NCBI RefSeq assembly: GCF_019890675.1 | Contig: NZ_JAIOAA010000015.1 | Location: 62,001-126,000 of the forward strand | Direction of reading: 5' to 3' | DNA length: 64,000 bases | DNA from: Micromonospora sp. PLK6-60 | Lineage (GTDB): Bacteria > Actinomycetota > Actinomycetes > Mycobacteriales > Micromonosporaceae | Shown here: piece by piece, positions 6,287 to 63,370 of the stretch | Position numbering within the stretch: the stretch's first letter is position 1 | Layout: the number at the start of each line of letters is the position of its first letter | Made by a program: the position numbers and the translations under genes | The notes under the pieces: generated by a model | What the model saw: the letters and a program-made list of their open reading frames with translations, nothing else | Told to the model about the DNA's origin: nothing | Database searches by the model: none

Positions 6287-7082
6287 ATCTCACGCTGGCA
6301 TGTCGGCCGCTCCGGCCGCATCTCCCAACCTGCCGTCGCGGCCGCCACCGCTGAGCTCCGGCTGGCGGCGCCGGCCGAATCCATGGTCGCCGGTGCGCAC
6401 GCCCGGGGGCCGAGGACCGCTTCGGGCGGGCTCGGGGTCGGGCGGGCTCGGGGTTGGGTGGTTCGGGATCGGGTGGTTTGGGTCAGGCGCTTCGGGGTGG
6501 GGCCACGCTTCGGGGTGGGGCCAGGCCGGTTCCGGTCGCGCTGGCCCGGGAAGTCACCCGGCCTGCGGGCCTCGGGCCGGGAGCCGGCGGTACCTCATCC
6601 GCGCCCTACCAACTTGACCTCACCAACGAATCACCGACCCCGCTCATTGCCGCATGCGGGTGCGACCGAGCCGTCGAATGATTCGTTTACGACATCAAGT
6701 CGGTAGGGCGCGAACCGCACCCCTCACAGTCCAGGCCCTGGCGCGCCCGCCGCTGCGGCAAACCCGTCCCCAACAGCCGAGGCGGGGCCTTGGTGTTGGG
6801 CGCTTGGGGCGGGGCCGTGGTGCGGGGCGCTTGGGCGGGGCGCTTCGGTGGGGGCGGCTACAGGGGTCGCGCGGTCCGGGGCCGACGACCCTCATCGCCG
6901 GGTGGGCGGTCAGCGACCCCCGGCCGCCAGCCGCTGGGAGGTCAGGGCTTGGCGCGGCGGCTGTGCACGCCGGCCGCTGTGCACGCCGGCCGTTGGGCAC
7001 GCCGGCCGTTGAGCACGCCGGCCGTTGAGCACGCCGGCCGTTGGGCACGCCGGCCGTTGGGCGGGCCAGCCGCTGGGCAGGG
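6287..7082. other. About 800-bp gene-free, repeat-rich intergenic region
   Basis: No convincing gene is seen here. From the left it contains a G-rich degenerate tandem array (about 6420-6537, units such as GGGCGGGCTCGGG and CTTCGGGGTGGGGCC), the 101-bp palindromic element (6606-6706), a second G-rich array (about 6780-6860, GGGCGCTTGGGGCGGGGCC-like units), and the 16-bp minisatellite with flanking direct repeats (6928-7101). Open frames across it are low-complexity Gly/Arg/Pro strings without start signals. Confidence 0.6.
6606..6706. repeat. 101-bp palindromic intergenic element, copy A
   Basis: The left arm is 6606-6633 and the right arm 6679-6706, 28 bp each; they are imperfect reverse complements sharing the blocks CTACC, ACTTGA and AACGAATCA. 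The centre is 45 bp. Arm and centre lengths are identical to copy B at 17971-18071, and the right arms share TGATTCGTT, ACGACATCAAGT and the terminal GTAG. Inside the centre, CCGCATGCGG is itself a palindrome. It reads as a member of a dispersed MITE- or REP-like family, or as a mobile structured RNA/terminator. Confidence 0.7.
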
Positions 7083-7101
7083 TCAGGGCTTGGTGCGGCG
7101 G
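6928..7101. repeat. 16-bp minisatellite flanked by duplicated gene end
   Basis: Seven head-to-tail 16-bp units run from 6965 to 7076 (consensus GCACGCCGGCCGTTGG; the last unit is degenerate). They are bracketed by a direct repeat of about 33 bp (6928-6960 and 7068-7101). The right-hand copy contains the stop codon and last codons of the TAXI lipoprotein gene, so the left copy is a duplicated relic of that gene's 3' end. There are no spacers between units, so it is not a CRISPR. Confidence 0.75.
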
Positions 7102-8033
7102 TACCACTCGGCCGCACCCGGATGCAGCGGTACCGGGTCGGTGGCGATCGCCGAGCGGGGGCTGATCCGGCCGGCCGCCGGATGCGCCCGGGCCAGCTCG
7201 GTCCGGCGCTCCATCAGCAGCCGGGTGATCTCGCGGACCAGCGGGTCCGGCAGGTTCGTGGCGACGATCAGATAGTTCGGGTTCGCCACCGTGCTCACCG
7301 GCTCGGTCAGGTACGCCGACCGCGGCACGTCCCGGGTGACGTAGACCTCGCCGTGCGCGCGGCGCAGCCGCTCGGTCCACTCGCCCAGGTCGACCACGCG
7401 GGTGGCGGTGGTGGTGGTCAGCTCCCGCACCGCCCGCACGGGCAGGCCGCCGGAGAAGAAGAACGCGTCGACCCGGCCGGCGCGCAGCGCGGCCACCGAG
7501 TCGTCGAGGCCGAGGTGCTGCTGGCGGACCCGGCCGTCGAGCTGTGCCACGTCCAGCAGGCGGGTGGCGGTGATCGCGGTGCCGGAACCGGGCGCGCCCA
7601 CCGACACCCGGCGCCCGGTCAGGTCGGCCAGCGTCCGTACCGGGCTGCCGGCGAGGGTGACCAGGTGCAGCAGGTCGTCGTAGACCCGGGCGACCGCCCG
7701 CACCCGCCCGGCCGACTCGGTGGTCAACGCGTCGGCCTGGGTGAACCCGAGCTCGGCCTGCCCCGAGCCGACCATCCGCACGTTCTCCTCGGACGCGGCG
7801 GTGACCACCACGCTCGCCCGTACCCCGGGCAGTTCCCGGTTGAGGATGCCGGCCAGCGACTCGCCGAAGGCATGGTAGACGGCGGTGGGGCTGCCGGTGG
7901 CGATCCGGATCGGGATCGGCCCGGCCGGCTCGTCCCGGCACGCGCCGAGCTGCGGCAGCGCCGCCAGCAGCAGCACGCACACCACCAACCGGGCCCACCC
8001 TCGGCGGCCCGGGCGCAGCCGGCCACGGTTCAC
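7083..8033 (-). CDS. TAXI-family TRAP transporter substrate-binding lipoprotein
   Basis: A 316-residue predicted lipoprotein. The N-terminal Arg-rich region and hydrophobic helix end in the lipobox LGAC (Cys at about residue 33). The mature part has the TAXI/periplasmic-binding pattern: IRIATGSPTAVYHAFGESLAGIL, then ELGFTQADAL, GRRVSVGAPGSGTAITATRLL and VDAFFFSGGLPVRAVRELT. Such proteins bind small acids for TRAP transporters. No DctQM-like permease gene is adjacent, so it may serve a remote permease or a sensory role. I chose the GTG at 8033, just ahead of the signal peptide. The longer open frame upstream is Pro/Arg-rich non-coding sequence. Confidence 0.82.
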   Translation of the reverse strand: MNRGRLRPGRRGWARLVVCVLLLAALPQLGACRDEPAGPIPIRIATGSPTAVYHAFGESLAGILNRELPGVRASVVVTAASEENVRMVGSGQAELGFTQADALTTESAGRVRAVARVYDDLLHLVTLAGSPVRTLADLTGRRVSVGAPGSGTAITATRLLDVAQLDGRVRQQHLGLDDSVAALRAGRVDAFFFSGGLPVRAVRELTTTTATRVVDLGEWTERLRRAHGEVYVTRDVPRSAYLTEPVSTVANPNYLIVATNLPDPLVREITRLLMERRTELARAHPAAGRISPRSAIATDPVPLHPGAAEWYRRTKP

Positions 8034-8166
8034 AGGCAGCACTCTGCGCCGCCCGGCGTCGCGGTGCAAGCCCGGACGCGGGCGGTCGGCCGGACCGGGC
8101 GGGAACGTCCCGGTACGCGGCAACTCGGGCCGGGCGGTCCAATGCCCGGCGGTAGCTCGGGCCGCG

Positions 8167-8205
8167 CGGCGTAGGTCGGGGCCGGGCGGCGTAGGTCGGG
8201 CCGGG
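8167..8205. repeat. Short direct repeat upstream of TAXI gene
   Basis: Two near-identical copies of about 20 bp (CGGCGTAGGTCGGGCCGGG-like) run head to tail in the leader of the TAXI gene, flanked by CCGCGCGGC on both sides (8162 and 8212). They may be a regulatory repeat or simple expansion; no promoter elements are obvious. Confidence 0.4.
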
Positions 8206-8226
8206 CGGTCGCCGCGCGGCGGTGGC

Positions 8227-8880
8227 TCAGGCGGGGGTGGCCGCCGGGGAGAGGGCGGCGCTGTCCAGGATCCGGAGCCGGTGCGGGCCGTCCGCGACCG
8301 ACACCACGAAACAGCCGGCGCCGGGACGCAGCAGGGCGGGCACGTCCAGCAGGGCGGCGCCGCGGACCAGCACGGCGGCCAGCTCCCGGTCGACCAGCCG
8401 GACCCCGAGGATGTGCCGGCGGACGTGCCGGCCACCGGCCAGCAGCGCCGACCGCCAGGCCGCGGCGGCGAGCCGGGTACGCCACACCCGGCGCACGGTG
8501 GACGCGCCCGGCTGCGGGCCGAGCAGTTCCCGGCGGCCCTGCCGCCAGCCCGCCGCCACCAGTTCGGCGTACGCGGACCGGTGCGTCCCGGGCACCGCCA
8601 GCCGGTGCAGCTCGTAGCGGCGGCGCAGCCCGCCGGTGGTCACGTCGTGCTCCACCGGCACGTCCAGCCGGGCGAGCAGCTGGCGCATCCGGTGCGCCGC
8701 CTCCGGGCGGTTGAACTCGGCCGGCGCACCCCGGTAGGGCCCGGCGCCCCGGCGGCCGGTGTCGGCGGGCGGCGGCACGCAGCGGACGAGGCAGGCGACC
8801 TCGAAGGCGTCGGCGAGGGTGTGCCAGTCCAGTGGCGGCGCCGGGCGGGGCCGGTCGAGCAGCATGGTGTGCGGGGCCAT
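8227..8880 (-). CDS. Hypothetical protein
   Basis: A 217-residue soluble, Arg/Ala/Leu-rich protein with no signal peptide and no motif I recognise. The ATG at 8880 (MAPHTMLLDRP) has AAGGAGC six bases upstream, which fixes the start against the longer in-frame candidates at 8964. The C-terminal half (LVDRELAAVLVRGAALLDVPALL, then CFVVSVADGPHRLRILDSA) alternates strands and helices like a small alpha/beta domain. It lies upstream of and on the same strand as the TAXI gene (193 bp apart), and downstream of yaaA. Confidence 0.65.
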   Translation of the reverse strand: MAPHTMLLDRPRPAPPLDWHTLADAFEVACLVRCVPPPADTGRRGAGPYRGAPAEFNRPEAAHRMRQLLARLDVPVEHDVTTGGLRRRYELHRLAVPGTHRSAYAELVAAGWRQGRRELLGPQPGASTVRRVWRTRLAAAAWRSALLAGGRHVRRHILGVRLVDRELAAVLVRGAALLDVPALLRPGAGCFVVSVADGPHRLRILDSAALSPAATPA

Positions 8881-13398: not shown

Positions 13399-15507
13399 TC
13401 AGCTCGCCGAGGGGCGGAGCCAGAGCACGCCCAGCGGCGGCACCCGCAGCGCCGCCGACGAGGGCATCCCGTGCCACGGGACGTCCTCGGCGTGCACCGC
13501 GCCGAGGTTGCCGACCCCGGAGCCGCCGTAGTGGTGGGCGTCGGTGTTCACCACCTCGGTCCAGGTGCCGCCGGCCGGTAGCCCGATCCGGTAGTCCTCC
13601 AGCGGCAGGGCGGAGAAGTTCGCCACGCAGACCAGCGTCTGGCCGTCGGGGGCGATCCGGACGAACGAGACCGTGTTGTTGGCGACGTCGTCGCCGGAGA
13701 TCCAGCGGAAGCCGGCCGGCTCGGTGTCCTGCGCCCACAGCGCCGGGGTGGCCCGGTAGGCCCGGTTCAGGTCGCCGACGAGCCGCTGCACCCCGGCCCG
13801 GGCGGGGTCGTGGGTCAGGTACCAGTCGAGGCCGCGCTGCTCGCTCCACTCCCGGTCGTCGGCCAGCTCGCAGCCCATGAAGAGCAGCTGCTTGCCGGGG
13901 TGCGCCCACATGTACGCCAGCAGCGCGCGGACGTTGGCCAGCCGCTGCCAGGTGTCGCCGGGCATCTTGCCCGCGAGGGAGCCCTTGCCGTGCACCACCT
14001 CGTCGTGGCTGATCGGCAGCACGTAGTTCTCGCTCCAGGCGTACGCCAGGGAGAAGGTGAGCTGATGGTGGTGGTGCTGCCGGTAGATCGGGTCCTTCGA
14101 GGTGTAGAGCAGGGTGTCGTGCATCCAGCCCATGTTCCACTTGAACCCGAAGCCGAGCCCGCCCTCGGCGGTGGGCCGGGTGACCCCCGGCCAGGCGGTG
14201 GACTCCTCGGCGATCATCAGCACGCCCGGGTGGTGCTTGTAGACGGTGGCGTTGGTCTCCTGGAGGAAGGCGATCGCCTCCAGGTTCTCCCGGCCGCCGT
14301 GCACGTTCGGCGCCCACTGCCCCTCCTGGCGGGAGTAGTCCAGGTAGAGCATCGAGGCGACCGCGTCGACCCGCAGGCCGTCGACGTGGAACTCGTCCAG
14401 CCAGTAGAGCGCGTTGGCGACCAGGAAGTTGCGCGCCTCCCGGCGGCCGAAGTCGAAGACGTACGTGCCCCAGTCGGGGTGCTCGCCGCGGCGGGGGTCG
14501 GGGTGCTCGTAGAGCGGGGTGCCGTCGAAGCGGGCCAGGGCCCACTCGTCCTTGGGGAAGTGCGCCGGCACCCAGTCGAGGATCACCCCGATGCCGGCGG
14601 CGTGCAGCCGGTCGACCAGGTGGCGGAACTCGTCCGGGTCACCGAAGCGGGCGGTGGGGGCGTAGTAGCCGGTGACCTGGTAACCCCAGGACCCGCCGAA
14701 CGGGTGTTCCATCACCGGCAGGAACTCCACGTGGGTGAAGCCCAGCTCGGTGACGTACGCGGTGAGCTGCTCGGCCAGCTCCCGGTAGCTCAGCCCGGGC
14801 CGCCAGGAGCCCAGGTGCACCTCGTACACGCTCATCGGCTCCTGGTGCGGCTGCCGCCGCGCCCGCCGGGCCAACCAGTCGGCGTCGCCCCACTCGTACC
14901 TGGAGTGGTGCACCACCGAGGCGGTGGCCGGCGGCGCCTCGGTGCGGGTGGCCATCGGGTCGGCCTTGTCCCGCCACTGCCCGTCGGCGCCGAGGACGCG
15001 GTACTTGTAGCGGGCGCCGGCCGGCACCCCGGGCACGAAGACCTCCCACACCCCGCTGGAGCCCAGCGAGCGCATCGGCCAGCCGTCGTCCGGGCCCCAG
15101 CCGGTGAAGTCACCCACCACCCGAATCCCGCGCGCGTTGGGCGCCCAGACGGTGAAGGCCACCCCCTCGTCGAAGACCCGGGCGCCGAGCGCCTCCCACA
15201 GCCGCTCGTGCCGGCCCTCGCCGATCAGGTGCAGGTCCAGCTCGCCCAGCGTCGGCGGGTAACGGTAGGGGTCGTCGAGCACCGCGCCGTCCACCTCGAC
15301 CCGGTAGTCGAGCACCTCACCTGGCACGTCGGCGGCGAAGACACCGGCGTCGTGCACCCGCTTCATCGGGTGCCGCTCGTCGCCCACCAGCAGGGTCACG
15401 TCGGTGGCGCCGCGGCGCAGGGTGCGCACCGTCGTCCGCCCGCCGGCGGGGTGCGCCCCCAGCAGCGCGTGCGGATCGTACGACTGGCCGGCGATCAGCT
15501 GCTCCAT
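13399..15507 (-). CDS. glgB: 1,4-alpha-glucan branching enzyme GlgB
   Basis: A 702-residue GH13 enzyme that forms alpha-1,6 branches in glycogen or capsular glucan. It has an N-terminal carbohydrate-binding/isoamylase-like region ([27 protein letters not shown]), then the barrel with [18 protein letters not shown] (nucleophile Asp), [12 protein letters not shown] (acid/base Glu) and [13 protein letters not shown] (third acidic residue). The ATG at 15507 lies inside the last codons of glgE, overlapping by 13 bases, so the two are translationally coupled. It would act on the linear chain made by GlgE from maltose-1-phosphate. Confidence 0.95.
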
Positions 15508-17690
15508 CGGGCGTCCTTCGGGGCGGGTGCGGTCGGGGCGGCGCCGCGCTTGCGGCCCTTGCCGCGGCGCGGGCGCGACGTGGCGCCGGCCGGGGCGGGC
15601 TCGCCCGGCAGGCCGTCGGGCTGGGCGGGCCGGGTCGCGGCGGTGCCGCCGGACAACTCCTCCGGCACGGCCGCCACGGTCAACTCCACCGGGGCGGCGA
15701 CCGCCGGCTCGGGTGCGGGTGGTGGCGCCGGGCGGCGGACCGTCAGCACGTGCGCGGGTTGCAGGTACGGGTCGAGCCGCACCGCGTTGCGCTGCCCCCA
15801 GTCGTAGCTCGCGCCGGTCAGCTCGTCGCGCACGCCGAACCGCTCGTGCCAGTCGAAGCCCAGCGCCGGCATGTCGAGGGTGGTGTTGCCCCACTGCACG
15901 GTCTGCGGGTCGAACGAGCAGACCACGATCACCGTGTTGCCGGTCTCCGGGTCGTGCTTGGACCAGCAGAGCAGCGCCGGGTTGTCGATGTCGTGGAAGC
16001 GCAGATTGCGCAGCCGGTGCAGGGCCGGGTTCTCCCGGCGGATCCGGTTGAGGGTGGCGATGAACGGCGCCAGCGAGCGGCCCTGCGCCTCGGCACCGGC
16101 CCAGTCCCGGGGGCGCAGCTCGTACTTCTCGTTGTCCAGGTATTCCTCGGCGCCGGGGCGGGCGGTGTGCTCGAAGAGCTCGAACCCGGCGTACATGCCC
16201 CAGGAGGGGCTCAGCAGCGCGGCCAGCACCGCCCGGATCTTGAACATCGGCGGGCCGCCGTGCTGCAACGACTCGTGCAGGATGTCCGGGGTGTTGGGCC
16301 AGAAGTTCGGCCGCATGTAATCCGCCGCCGCGACCAGCTCCTCGCAGTATGCCCGCATCTCCGCCGCCGACGTGCGCCAGGTGAAGTACGTGTACGACTG
16401 GGTGAAACCGATCTTGCCCAGCCCGTGCATGATCGCCGGCCGGGTGAACGCCTCGGCCAGGAAGAGCACGTCCGGGTCGACCCGCTTGACCTCGGCGATC
16501 AGCCAGTGCCAGAAGTCGAACGGCTTGGTGTGCGGGTTGTCCACCCGGAAGATCTTGATGCCCTCGCCGACCCAGTGCAGCACCACCCGCAGCACCTCGG
16601 CCCGGATGCCCTCGGGGTCGTTGTCGAAGTTCAGCGGATAGATGTCCTGGTATTTCTTGGGCGGGTTCTCCGCGTACGCGATGCTGCCGTCGGCCCGGGT
16701 GGTGAACCACTCCGGGTGCTCGGTCACCCACGGGTGGTCCGGGGCGCACTGCAACGCCAGGTCCAGCGCCACCTCCAGGCCCTCGTCGGCCGCGGCGGCG
16801 ACGAACGCGCGGAAGTCCGCCGGCGTACCCAGGTCGGGGTGGATGGCGTCGTGGCCGCCCTCGGCGGCGCCGATCGCCCACGGCGAGCCCACGTCGTCGG
16901 GCCCGGCGGTGAGCGAGTTGTTGCGGCCCTTGCGGTTGACCCGGCCGATCGGGTGGATCGGCGGCAGGTAGAGCACGTCGAAGCCCATCGCCGCGACCCC
17001 GGCCAACCGGTCGATCGCGGTCCGGAAGGTGCCGGAGCGCGCCGGCTCGTCGATCGTCGCCGGCACCGCCCCCTCCGAGCGGGGGAAGAACTCGTACCAG
17101 GCGGAGAAGAGCGCCCGGGGCCGGTCCACCCAGATCCGGTGCCGTTCACCGGTGGTCACCAGCTCCCGGACCGGGTGGTCCCAGAGCAGGTCGGCCAGCT
17201 CCAGCGCCGGGGCCACCCGGCGGGGCAGGTCCAGCGCGGTGTCCGCCAGCGCCGCGACCGCGGCCCGCACCCGGTCGGCGTCCGCCGCCGGCACCAGGTC
17301 GACCGCGGCGGTCAGCACGCGTACGCCCTCGGCCAGGTCGTTGCCCAGCTCGGCCGCCCCCTGCCCGGCGGCGATCTTCTTGGTCACCGCGTTCTGCCAG
17401 GTCAGGTACGGGTCCTGGAACGCCTCGACGGCGAACACCCACTCACCGACCGCGTCCGGGCGGATGACGGCGTGCCAGGTGTCCTGGCCGGGCTCGCCGG
17501 GACGCATCCGGGTGAACGGGCGGGCGCCGCCGTCCGGGCCGAGCCAGACCACGTTGCAGCCCAGCGCGTCGTGCCCCTCCCGGTAGGCGCGGGCCGACAC
17601 CGGCACGAGTTCGTCGACCACCGCCTTGGCCGGGTAGCGACCGCAGGCGACGGCGGGGGAGACGTCTTCGATGGGGAACCGTCCGCTCAC
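15495..17690 (-). CDS. glgE: Maltose-1-phosphate maltosyltransferase GlgE
   Basis: A 731-residue GH13_3 enzyme that transfers maltosyl units from alpha-maltose-1-phosphate to alpha-1,4-glucan. Visible motifs are [21 protein letters not shown] (around 240-257), [33 protein letters not shown] with nucleophile Asp384, and [21 protein letters not shown] with Glu413. An Ala/Pro/Lys-rich tail of about 60 residues follows the catalytic part. It is the first gene of a glgE-glgB unit. In many actinobacteria treS and pep2 lie between glgE and glgB, but here they are absent, pointing to supply of the phosphate donor by GlgM. Confidence 0.95.
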
Positions 17691-17937: not shown

Positions 17938-17970
17938 CGCGCGGTGACCGTGCCGGGTGCCCCTCGTAGG

Positions 17971-18071
17971 CTACGAACTTGATGTCGTAGACGAATCACC
18001 CCGCCGGAACGATGCGGACTAACGCGGCATCCCGTTTCCCGGCTGATTCGTTCACGACATCAAGTTCGTAG
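17971..18071. repeat. 101-bp palindromic intergenic element, copy B
   Basis: The left arm (17971-17998) and right arm (18044-18071) are 28 bp each and match as reverse complements in 26 of 28 positions around a 45-bp centre. The centre holds its own weak hairpin (GATGCGG facing CGCGGCATC). The same architecture and arm sequence occur in copy A at 6606-6706. It sits 39 bp beyond the stop of the GntR gene, where it could act as a terminator, but the long arms and the second copy elsewhere suggest a dispersed repeat family. Confidence 0.75.
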
Positions 18072-18110
18072 TGTGCGGAGCGCCTACCCTCGGGCTCGCG
18101 GCGAGGAAAC

Positions 18111-18344
18111 TCACCCCTGGGCGGGCGGCTCCGGTGCCACGAACGACCCCTTGCCCTGGTGCACCTCGATCCAGCCCCGCTCGTCGAGGATTCGAAGGGC
18201 CAACCTGATCGGCGTCGCACTGGCCTTGTACTGCTCGCACAGCTCAGCGATGGATGGCAGTTTGTCTCCGGGTTGCAGCGCACCGGACTGAATCGACGTG
18301 ATCACGTCGGCGATGACCTGTTCGTAAAGCGGTTTTCTCGGCAT
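18111..18344 (-). CDS. Small GntR-type winged-helix regulator
   Basis: A 77-residue protein that is essentially only the GntR DNA-binding domain: PLYEQVIADVITSIQSGALQPGD, LPSIAELCEQYKAS, TPIRLALRILDERGWIEV and GKGSFVA. It lacks any effector-binding domain, as in the short single-domain GntR proteins that pair with XRE regulators in actinomycetes. The ATG at 18344 is chosen because it precedes PLYEQV directly (GAGAGG upstream); the in-frame start at 18425 would add unconserved residues. It is divergent from the XRE regulator and probably shares its control region. Confidence 0.85.
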   Translation of the reverse strand: MPRKPLYEQVIADVITSIQSGALQPGDKLPSIAELCEQYKASATPIRLALRILDERGWIEVHQGKGSFVAPEPPAQG

Positions 18345-18409
18345 GGAACGGCCGCCTCTCGTCAGCCCTTCGAGCATGCCATCCGACTCAGCATTCTGTG
18401 CATGGTGTG

Positions 18410-18438
18410 TTGACTCTGTACTCACTGCACTCTAAGTT
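18410..18438 (+). promoter_or_regulatory. Candidate promoter for leader peptide/XRE regulator
   Basis: TTGACT (18410-18415), a 17-bp spacer and TAAGTT (18433-18438) form a plausible sigma-70-like promoter reading rightwards, about 100 bp before the leader peptide start. The spacer contains short repeats (ACTCTGTACTCACTGCACTC) that could be an operator shared with the divergent GntR gene. This is inference from spacing only. Confidence 0.35.
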
Positions 18439-62986: not shown

Positions 62987-63145
62987 GCCCTGATTCCCCT
63001 CTCGGTGCCGTCCATGGGACTGCTACCCGGCAGGGCGCGCTTGAACCGACACGCCCCGCGCCGTCCGCCACCGGGGCCCGCGGTGGCCGAGCGCGCGCGT
63101 GCCCGTGCGCGCTCACCGACGGTCACCCTCCCGTCCGTTGGGTAC

Positions 63146-63295
63146 GCCACCCCGCAGGCTTTGCTCTGCTGCCGCCGAGGCAACAGGCACGAAGAGTGAT
63201 CGGGCGGGGGTCATCCACCAGCCTGCCGCCGGGGGAGATGGCCTGTTCAGGCGGGTGTTGCCTGGGCGGAAGCAGAGCAAAGCCTGGGGGGTGGC
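63146..63295. repeat. 150-bp element with 40-bp inverted arms
   Basis: Left arm 63146-63185 and right arm 63256-63295 are reverse complements at 37 of 40 positions, enclosing a 70-bp centre. The strongest block is CAGGCTTTGCTCTGCT facing AGCAGAGCAAAGCCTG. No ORF spans it convincingly and no clean target-site duplication is evident. It may be a MITE, a structured RNA or a dispersed palindromic repeat, in the 642-bp gene-free gap upstream of the alcohol dehydrogenase. Confidence 0.72.
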
Positions 63296-63370
63296 GGTTG
63301 GGCCGGGCGGCTGGAGTCGCGCAGAGTCACCGGCGTCGTCCTGCGACTGGGGGTAACCGTGAGTGACGGT

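Follow-up and report, generated by a model that had tools for sequence, protein, structure and literature searches.

REPIN- and MITE-like inverted repeats of Micromonospora with centre lengths that step by the helix turn in one genome

The MITEs of bacteria carry terminal inverted repeats, contain no gene and lie dispersed in intergenic DNA. The dependence of DNA looping on helix phase is known from engineered spacers and from the IESs of ciliates, and the length-and-twist study of IS50/Tn5 by Goryshin et al. in 1994 which Arnaiz et al. cite, is said to have found that the distance from end to end matters in units of the helix turn. The sections drawn on here of Bertels and Rainey (2011; PMC3116915) describe REPINs as inverted REP doublets with RAYT transposases. 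Those of Arnaiz et al. (2012; PMC3464196) report a periodicity of about 10 bp in the lengths of Paramecium IESs, which peak at 45-46, 55-56 and 65-66 bp, and interpret this periodicity as looping of duplex DNA in a transpososome-like complex. Among open-licence papers we found no description of a family such as the one reported below under inverted, palindromic, miniature or extragenic repeats of Micromonospora, nor anything on REPINs together with RAYTs in Actinobacteria.

The window, i.e. the whole stretch of 64,000 nucleotides of Micromonospora sp. PLK6-60 that was analysed, holds two copies of the repeat (Table 1). Both lie exactly where an earlier note had placed them (6606-6706 and 17971-18071, with 28-bp arms and a 45-bp centre). 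The 22-base arm core had three window matches at up to three mismatches against a mean of 0.00 in 100 shuffles, and the 14-base outer half at up to two mismatches matched all four window arms against 0.04 in shuffles, so that chance is excluded for the two elements. A sequence-only arm model of 44 columns, built from 80 arms, recovered the four window arms at E values from 4e-9 to 1.5e-12; its next-best matches in the window were partial (E 0.033 and 0.06). Both copies lie near the 3' ends of minus-strand genes, as had also been observed earlier: copy 1 is found 376 bp beyond the end of an NMT1-like minus-strand gene (7083-8435), and copy 2 is located 39 bp beyond the end of a GntR minus-strand gene (18111-18425) and 280 bp before the start of a GlgE gene (15495-17690). 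An unrelated inverted repeat of 41 bp, 93% complementary and with its halves 70 bases apart, occupies window positions 63145-63185 and 63256-63296.

Table 1. Positions of the two elements and their parts in the window
Feature	Position	Strand	Basis
Copy 1, whole repeated unit (CCTC group)	6584..6722	.	Per-position identity, 15-member group; homology with sister copies reaches about 28 bases to the left and 22 to the right of the 22-base core
Copy 1, left arm, 28 bp, CCTC type	6606..6633	+	
Copy 1, centre, 45 bp	6634..6678	.	
Copy 1, right arm, 28 bp	6679..6706	-	
Copy 2, whole unit	17955..18087	.	Information content of 100 arms and family profile; edges assumed, as for the other copies, 22 bases beyond the 22-base cores
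Copy 2, left arm, 28 bp	17971..17998	+	
Copy 2, centre, 45 bp	17999..18043	.	
Copy 2, right arm, 28 bp	18044..18071	-	

The family extends far beyond these two copies. In the source genome (6.46 Mb in 50 contigs) arm cores with up to three mismatches occurred 43 times in forward and 44 times in reverse orientation, the reversed control giving 0, and the arm model found 106 arms (weakest E=0.0026), which make up 50 inverted pairs and six solo arms. Of 58 loci fetched from this genome five were duplicates; the remaining 53 comprise the 50 pairs and three of the solo arms (L020, L048, L052), the other three lying on contigs 8 and 49. The exact 19-base arm core was present in 22 of 38 genomes of the same genus and in none of 162 genomes that represent 43 further genera of the family, with controls at 0. 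An order-wide draw of 150 genomes, scanned with the arm model under stricter filters and with 42 candidates scored per genome, gave matches in 10 of 15 listed genomes of the same genus and in none of the others in the draw. In a scan of named genomes all of the at least 80 loci among the matches listed belonged to Micromonospora. As far as searched, the family is confined to this genus.

Within Micromonospora the distribution is very uneven. At two mismatches the source genome has 84 cores and no other of 121 genomes of the genus more than 15; 46 of the 121 carry any core, and the range is 0 to 84. The arm model found 46 arms in the relative G035 and none in five other genomes of the genus. 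Inverted pairs with gaps of 4-64 bp occurred in 46 of 160 genomes, the source genome included. An origin from plasmids, phages or viruses was rejected, as one element queried against plasmids and phages and the exact arm pattern searched in viral contigs gave no match.

A sister family has the outer block (CT..GGAGCTG) in common with these elements and a different inner half (GCCCCGT...). It has 42 copies in genome G011, and the 14 that were fetched (L340-L353) all contain a 54-base core with a mean identity of 91%. Just outside this core, positions are 86-100% symmetric yet variable between the 14 copies. The sister family in G011 is probably a more recent expansion. Its pattern was found in 14 of 160 genomes; the reversed control matched eight genomes one to three times each, so that single matches elsewhere may be due to chance. 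Two patterns of the TGATG family gave no match in G011.

The copies in the source genome are dispersed units of about 135-145 bp with conserved arms. Identity within the 15-member group is 94-97% in the arms, 76% in the centre and 72-75% in the near flanks, and within a 7-member group 96-98%, 75% and 73-85%, respectively. Outside about -28/+22 identity is 0.32-0.40, close to the chance value of 0.31, and the right edge of the unit is sharp (1.0 at +22, 0.27 at +23). Single linkage sorts the 50 centres into 16 groups (15, 12, 5, 4, 2 and 2 members and ten singletons). In 12 non-overlapping nearest pairs 4.3% of sites differed in the arm, 20.9% in the centre, 21.7% in the near flank and 58.8% in the far flank. 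The low divergence of the arms compared with that of centres and far flanks therefore indicates dispersed units whose ends are kept by selection. Terminal inverted repeats, lack of coding capacity and dispersed copies place them near MITEs, and the 50 inverted doublets of a conserved, short, near-palindromic repeat place them near REPINs; the inner 19-mer of the arm is itself a quasi-palindrome. The suggestion of a REP- or MITE-like dispersed family made in the earlier note is supported, for a family restricted to one genus as far as searched. That note had also described conserved arms around a changing centre of constant length; arms and centre behave as described, whereas the length is not constant but quantised.

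The gaps between the arms of the 50 pairs were 35 (three pairs), 45 (29), 46 (two), 56 (four), 57, 66 (two), 77, 88, 97 (two), 99 (three), 109 and 166 bp. Up to 109 bp the centre lengths step by one turn of the helix (35, 45, 56, 66, 77, 88, 97-99 and 109 bp), and the 11 distinct lengths of up to 120 bp gave R=0.937 at a period of 10.55 bp, a value as high as which was found in none of 20,000 random sets. Because many of the 45-bp elements are related, the test was repeated with one length per centre lineage (14, compiled by hand), which gave R=0.969. The 166-bp element is off phase, and its inclusion gave R=0.905; omission of every 45 gave R=0.963. None of 20,000 smoothed sets was as high in these lineage tests within 10-11.2 bp, and over all periods from 6 to 20 p was 0.0002 for the set without 45 and 0 for the other sets. 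In the GC-rich centres of the source genome A/T recurs at intervals of about 10 bp, in a fixed position relative to the arms. Peaks at 13-14, 23 and 32 bp from the arm edge appeared in three sets of 45-bp centres, namely the CCTC group (15), a second group (8) and six others, two of which are loosely linked to the second group in the single-linkage grouping, and the 19 elements of other lengths showed the same A/T phase (P=0.003). The length steps and the A/T phase both suggest bending of duplex DNA between two bound ends.

In other species phasing of the gap is weak. Pairs compiled by hand from among the matches listed gave a best R of 0.32-0.33 (p 0.005-0.007 within 10-11.2 bp and 0.035-0.052 over all periods from 6 to 20) at a phase of 7.6 bp, against 3.5 bp modulo 10.5 in the source genome. 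A partly overlapping set of 52 other-species pairs gave R 0.30-0.33 at 10.5-11.5 bp, and A/T phasing in these pairs was not significant (P=0.06). Strong phasing is a property of the expansion in the source genome and is claimed for that expansion rather than for the whole family.

That the repeats are non-autonomous mobile elements, whose ends are paired by a putative enzyme through a small loop of duplex, is the likeliest account and has in our judgement an even chance of being correct. Each copy would be a small element of about 135-145 bp or more with two inverted ends of about 44 bp and a free centre. A putative recombinase or transposase encoded elsewhere would bind both ends, gripping them on one face of the helix, and join them by looping the double-stranded centre, and the outer half of the end would serve as a recognition block common to both ends of an element. 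Since a short duplex would have to be looped, mostly centres of about a whole number of turns that can bend in phase would have been propagated or kept in the source genome. We infer that a protein mobilises the element, that movement occurs in trans and that the looping step is under selection. Against this it may be said that old copies keep conserved arms and that solo arms recur at conserved places, which fits a function in place as well. The absence of a target-site duplication and of a transposase linked to the arms among our results, the weak and differently placed phasing in other species and the off-phase 166-bp element count against it too.

Movement by a transposase acting in trans, an idea already put forward in the earlier note, is still the best guess, although no transposase linked to the arms was found. 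Y1 (RAYT) transposases (PF01797) gave no match at E<=0.01 in the source genome, the same search being positive in 6 of 14 control genomes, and the fetched loci showed no parent transposon in which such ends flank a transposase. No length or offset stood out as a target-site duplication in the 50 elements of the source genome (the best score, 6/50 against 1.0 expected, came from a scan of tens of thousands of combinations), nor was a duplication found in the 14 copies of the sister family. Two candidates for a transposase between distant arms were rejected. The pair at L164, 743 bp apart, encloses a predicted membrane protein, and two weak arms on contig 8, separated by 10.6 kb, are solo arms of the CCTC type next to repeated gene blocks. 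At three places (L298:2291-3281, L298:13069-14065 and L299:5261-6258) a block of about 1 kb recurs with 93-95% identity; it encodes a protein of 183 amino acids that has no Pfam match, and a solo CCTC-type arm lies near each.

It seems unlikely to us, though not negligibly so, that the elements are REPIN-like in the sense that some enzyme, not a Y1 RAYT, recognises folded hairpins of single-stranded DNA or RNA in which the outer halves are paired and the inner halves are read unpaired. Strong folding of both window copies on each strand (z -6.8 to -9.8) speaks for it, and the symmetry just outside the core of the sister family would also fit. Further support comes from the arms of other species. 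The end of an element, about 44 bp long, consists of an outer half and an inner half, ACGANTCA, which is common to the family. In 67 non-redundant pairs from other species, with positions counted from the T of TGATG, both arms of an element agree at -7, -6, -5, -4, -2, -1 and +5 (z 3.8-6.7); the match at +7 is weak (z 2.4), and +8, +9, +10, +12, +14, +15 and +18 show none (z -2.0 to 1.7). Matching of the outer half is, however, undiminished at loops of up to 321 bases. For gaps between 5 and 321 bases it shows no dependence on gap length (Spearman -0.017, p=0.89), with 5.4-5.7 of seven positions matched in every gap class against 3.5 for random arms; the two pairs with the longest gaps, perhaps not true partners, were kept in this test. 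This constancy argues against a hairpin, because the need for a hairpin should weaken with the length of its loop. Judged by these sequences, the arm outside the source genome looks like an element-specific outer half joined to a common inner half, the arms apparently being read by one partner and not by each other. The inner half ends in A or G, and this base is the same in both arms in 40 of the 67 pairs (expected 45.3); an A/G difference between the two arms is slightly commoner than expected, as if the ends were not equivalent.

In the source genome the outer block is nearly uniform and the arms vary independently except at -5, which is matched within elements (p=0.0145 without the CCTC group). 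Position +5 is unmatched (24/35, expected 23.5), unlike in other species, a further point against the mobile reading. Among 29 aligned elements a two-sided change was seen at only one of 28 arm pairs, against a shuffled mean of 3.4, and pairing was broken at several positions in about half of them; in 15 of the 50 elements one CCTC-type arm disrupts the pairing. Conservation for secondary structure, as the earlier note had read the repeat, is thus not supported in this genome, and the compensatory base changes that it had proposed as a check do not exceed shuffles in the arms. RNA or cruciform structure in the source genome was rejected for want of arm covariation. The centre as a consistent palindrome was rejected as well (39.5% of cells paired against 36.2% in shuffles); its covariation score beat all 500 shuffles, but sliding by 3 columns scored equally high. 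Nor would the phasing of length and A/T be expected from a single-stranded loop, and the Y1 transposase of REPINs is absent from the source genome. The lack of compensatory pairing here and the gap-independent match of outer halves elsewhere favour protein-bound ends that loop duplex DNA.

We likewise give little credence to the elements being fixed chromosomal or regulatory sites, spread by duplication, whose arms are looped by a DNA-binding protein that organises the chromosome or regulates neighbouring genes. Helical phasing would fit any looping protein, the centres drift while the arms are conserved in place, and solo arms do recur at particular sites. Among 80 named loci of the matches listed, an inverted partner lies within 520 bases of 36 anchors; another 14 have a partner in which the inner 19-mer is flipped, and 30 have none; four loci resemble single full palindromes. 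A solo arm with at most one mismatch lies up to 700 bases past an XPB-type helicase gene (PF16203) at 10 of 30 loci, which were fetched from 61 genomes without selection for an arm. The helicase is the clearest recurrent neighbour, but it marks a conserved solo site and was rejected as a partner. The solo arm past this gene is present in many species (L209-L238, L293:2212-5210), and HicA/HicB-like genes, another long palindrome and, in three genomes, fragments of the helicase gene lie past it as well. In the source genome another solo arm lies directly after the integrase gene of a pSAM2-like integrative element (L292:6453-9957), with tRNA-Lys on its other side. This element encodes a tyrosine integrase (Phage_integrase) and RepSA, and in another species (G038, L297) an integrase with 94% identity is accompanied by the same solo arm.

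At least five element loci of the source genome share flanking DNA with element loci of G035, as fixed sites would. At the four loci printed for both genomes, however, the outer blocks differ and the centres are unrelated; the common loci are possibly hot spots of insertion, or else old sites whose centres have been replaced. Fixed sites are also hard to reconcile with core numbers that vary from 0 to 84 in 121 congeneric genomes and with the dispersal of sister copies whose far flanks are unrelated. Moreover, no full arm was present in 58 relatives' loci of the two window copies (29 each, 77-88% identical); two half-matches at one of them (L093) belong to the sister family. These loci have diverged too far to yield exact empty sites. 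In two relatives, L114 and L118, the intergenic region at copy 2 is short and has another long palindrome; the palindrome in this region of L095, L114 and L118 is of the type GATCTTGG...CCAAGATC.

Of 49 elements of the source genome, 21 lie between convergent, 22 between tandem and 6 between divergent genes. In a background of 50 intergenic gaps that measured 150 bp or more, taken from the window and seven fetched stretches and including element loci, 9 were convergent (Fisher p=0.009), gene context being called by a crude GC3 gene finder that missed the GntR gene beside copy 2. The role in termination or RNA stability considered in the earlier note is unproved: convergent regions are favoured, but neither copy shows a U-tailed pattern. 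Bidirectional terminators or RNA-stability hairpins between convergent genes would account for the strong hairpins, for this enrichment (within the limits of gene finder and background) and perhaps for the other palindrome of L114 and L118 at the copy-2 locus, but they are very improbable, since the intrinsic-terminator pattern (a GC hairpin followed by a U tract) was found 0 times around either copy, Rfam gave 0 matches in the window at gathering thresholds, a terminator needs neither a 28-bp sequence-specific motif nor gap phasing, and arm pairing is not kept up by compensation in the source genome.

If, on the other hand, the elements are mobile and are joined through a duplex loop, they might represent an undescribed class of bacterial elements, mobilised in trans, with lengths quantised by the helix turn and a putative recombinase that loops the duplex between modular ends. 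We offer this tentatively, as possible rather than probable, and no more firmly the proposal that each modular end of such a class joins an outer block peculiar to the element to an interchangeable inner block, TGATG...ACGANTCA here and GCCCCGT...GCGGGC in the 42-copy sister family. Were it true, some fifty natural elements in one bacterial genome would be a ready test bed for helix-phase looping, and a DNA-pairing protein in Micromonospora, its recognition block and the geometry of its loop would be predicted. The twist constraint seen in Paramecium IESs would then have a natural record in bacteria too. The elements also serve as a warning that a conserved and strongly folding inverted repeat need not be kept for RNA structure.

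Like REPINs, as far as these are characterised in the sections drawn on (PMC3116915), the Micromonospora elements are dispersed, intergenic inverted pairs of near-palindromic arms with a less conserved spacer; solo arms occur too, and movement in trans is presumed. Unlike REPINs as described there, they lack a Y1 transposase and, in the source genome, compensatory pairing, and their spacer grows in helix-turn steps. With Paramecium IESs, to judge from the corresponding sections on these (PMC3464196), they have in common their shortness, two ends and a length periodicity near 10.5 bp. The IESs, however, belong to the germline DNA of ciliates, have ends of a weak, mariner-like consensus and are excised by a domesticated piggyBac transposase (PMC3464196), whereas the Micromonospora elements are bacterial and have long conserved ends and no enzyme identified. 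They resemble MITEs in their terminal inverted repeats, their lack of genes and their dispersal in intergenic DNA, and differ from them in that no target-site duplication was found, nor a parent transposon among the fetched loci, and in that, in other species, the outer halves vary between elements and match within one. IS50/Tn5 is an engineered bench system, while the Micromonospora elements are a natural genomic family. On balance they are best read as REPIN- or MITE-like elements with helix-quantised lengths, as in the IESs of Paramecium.
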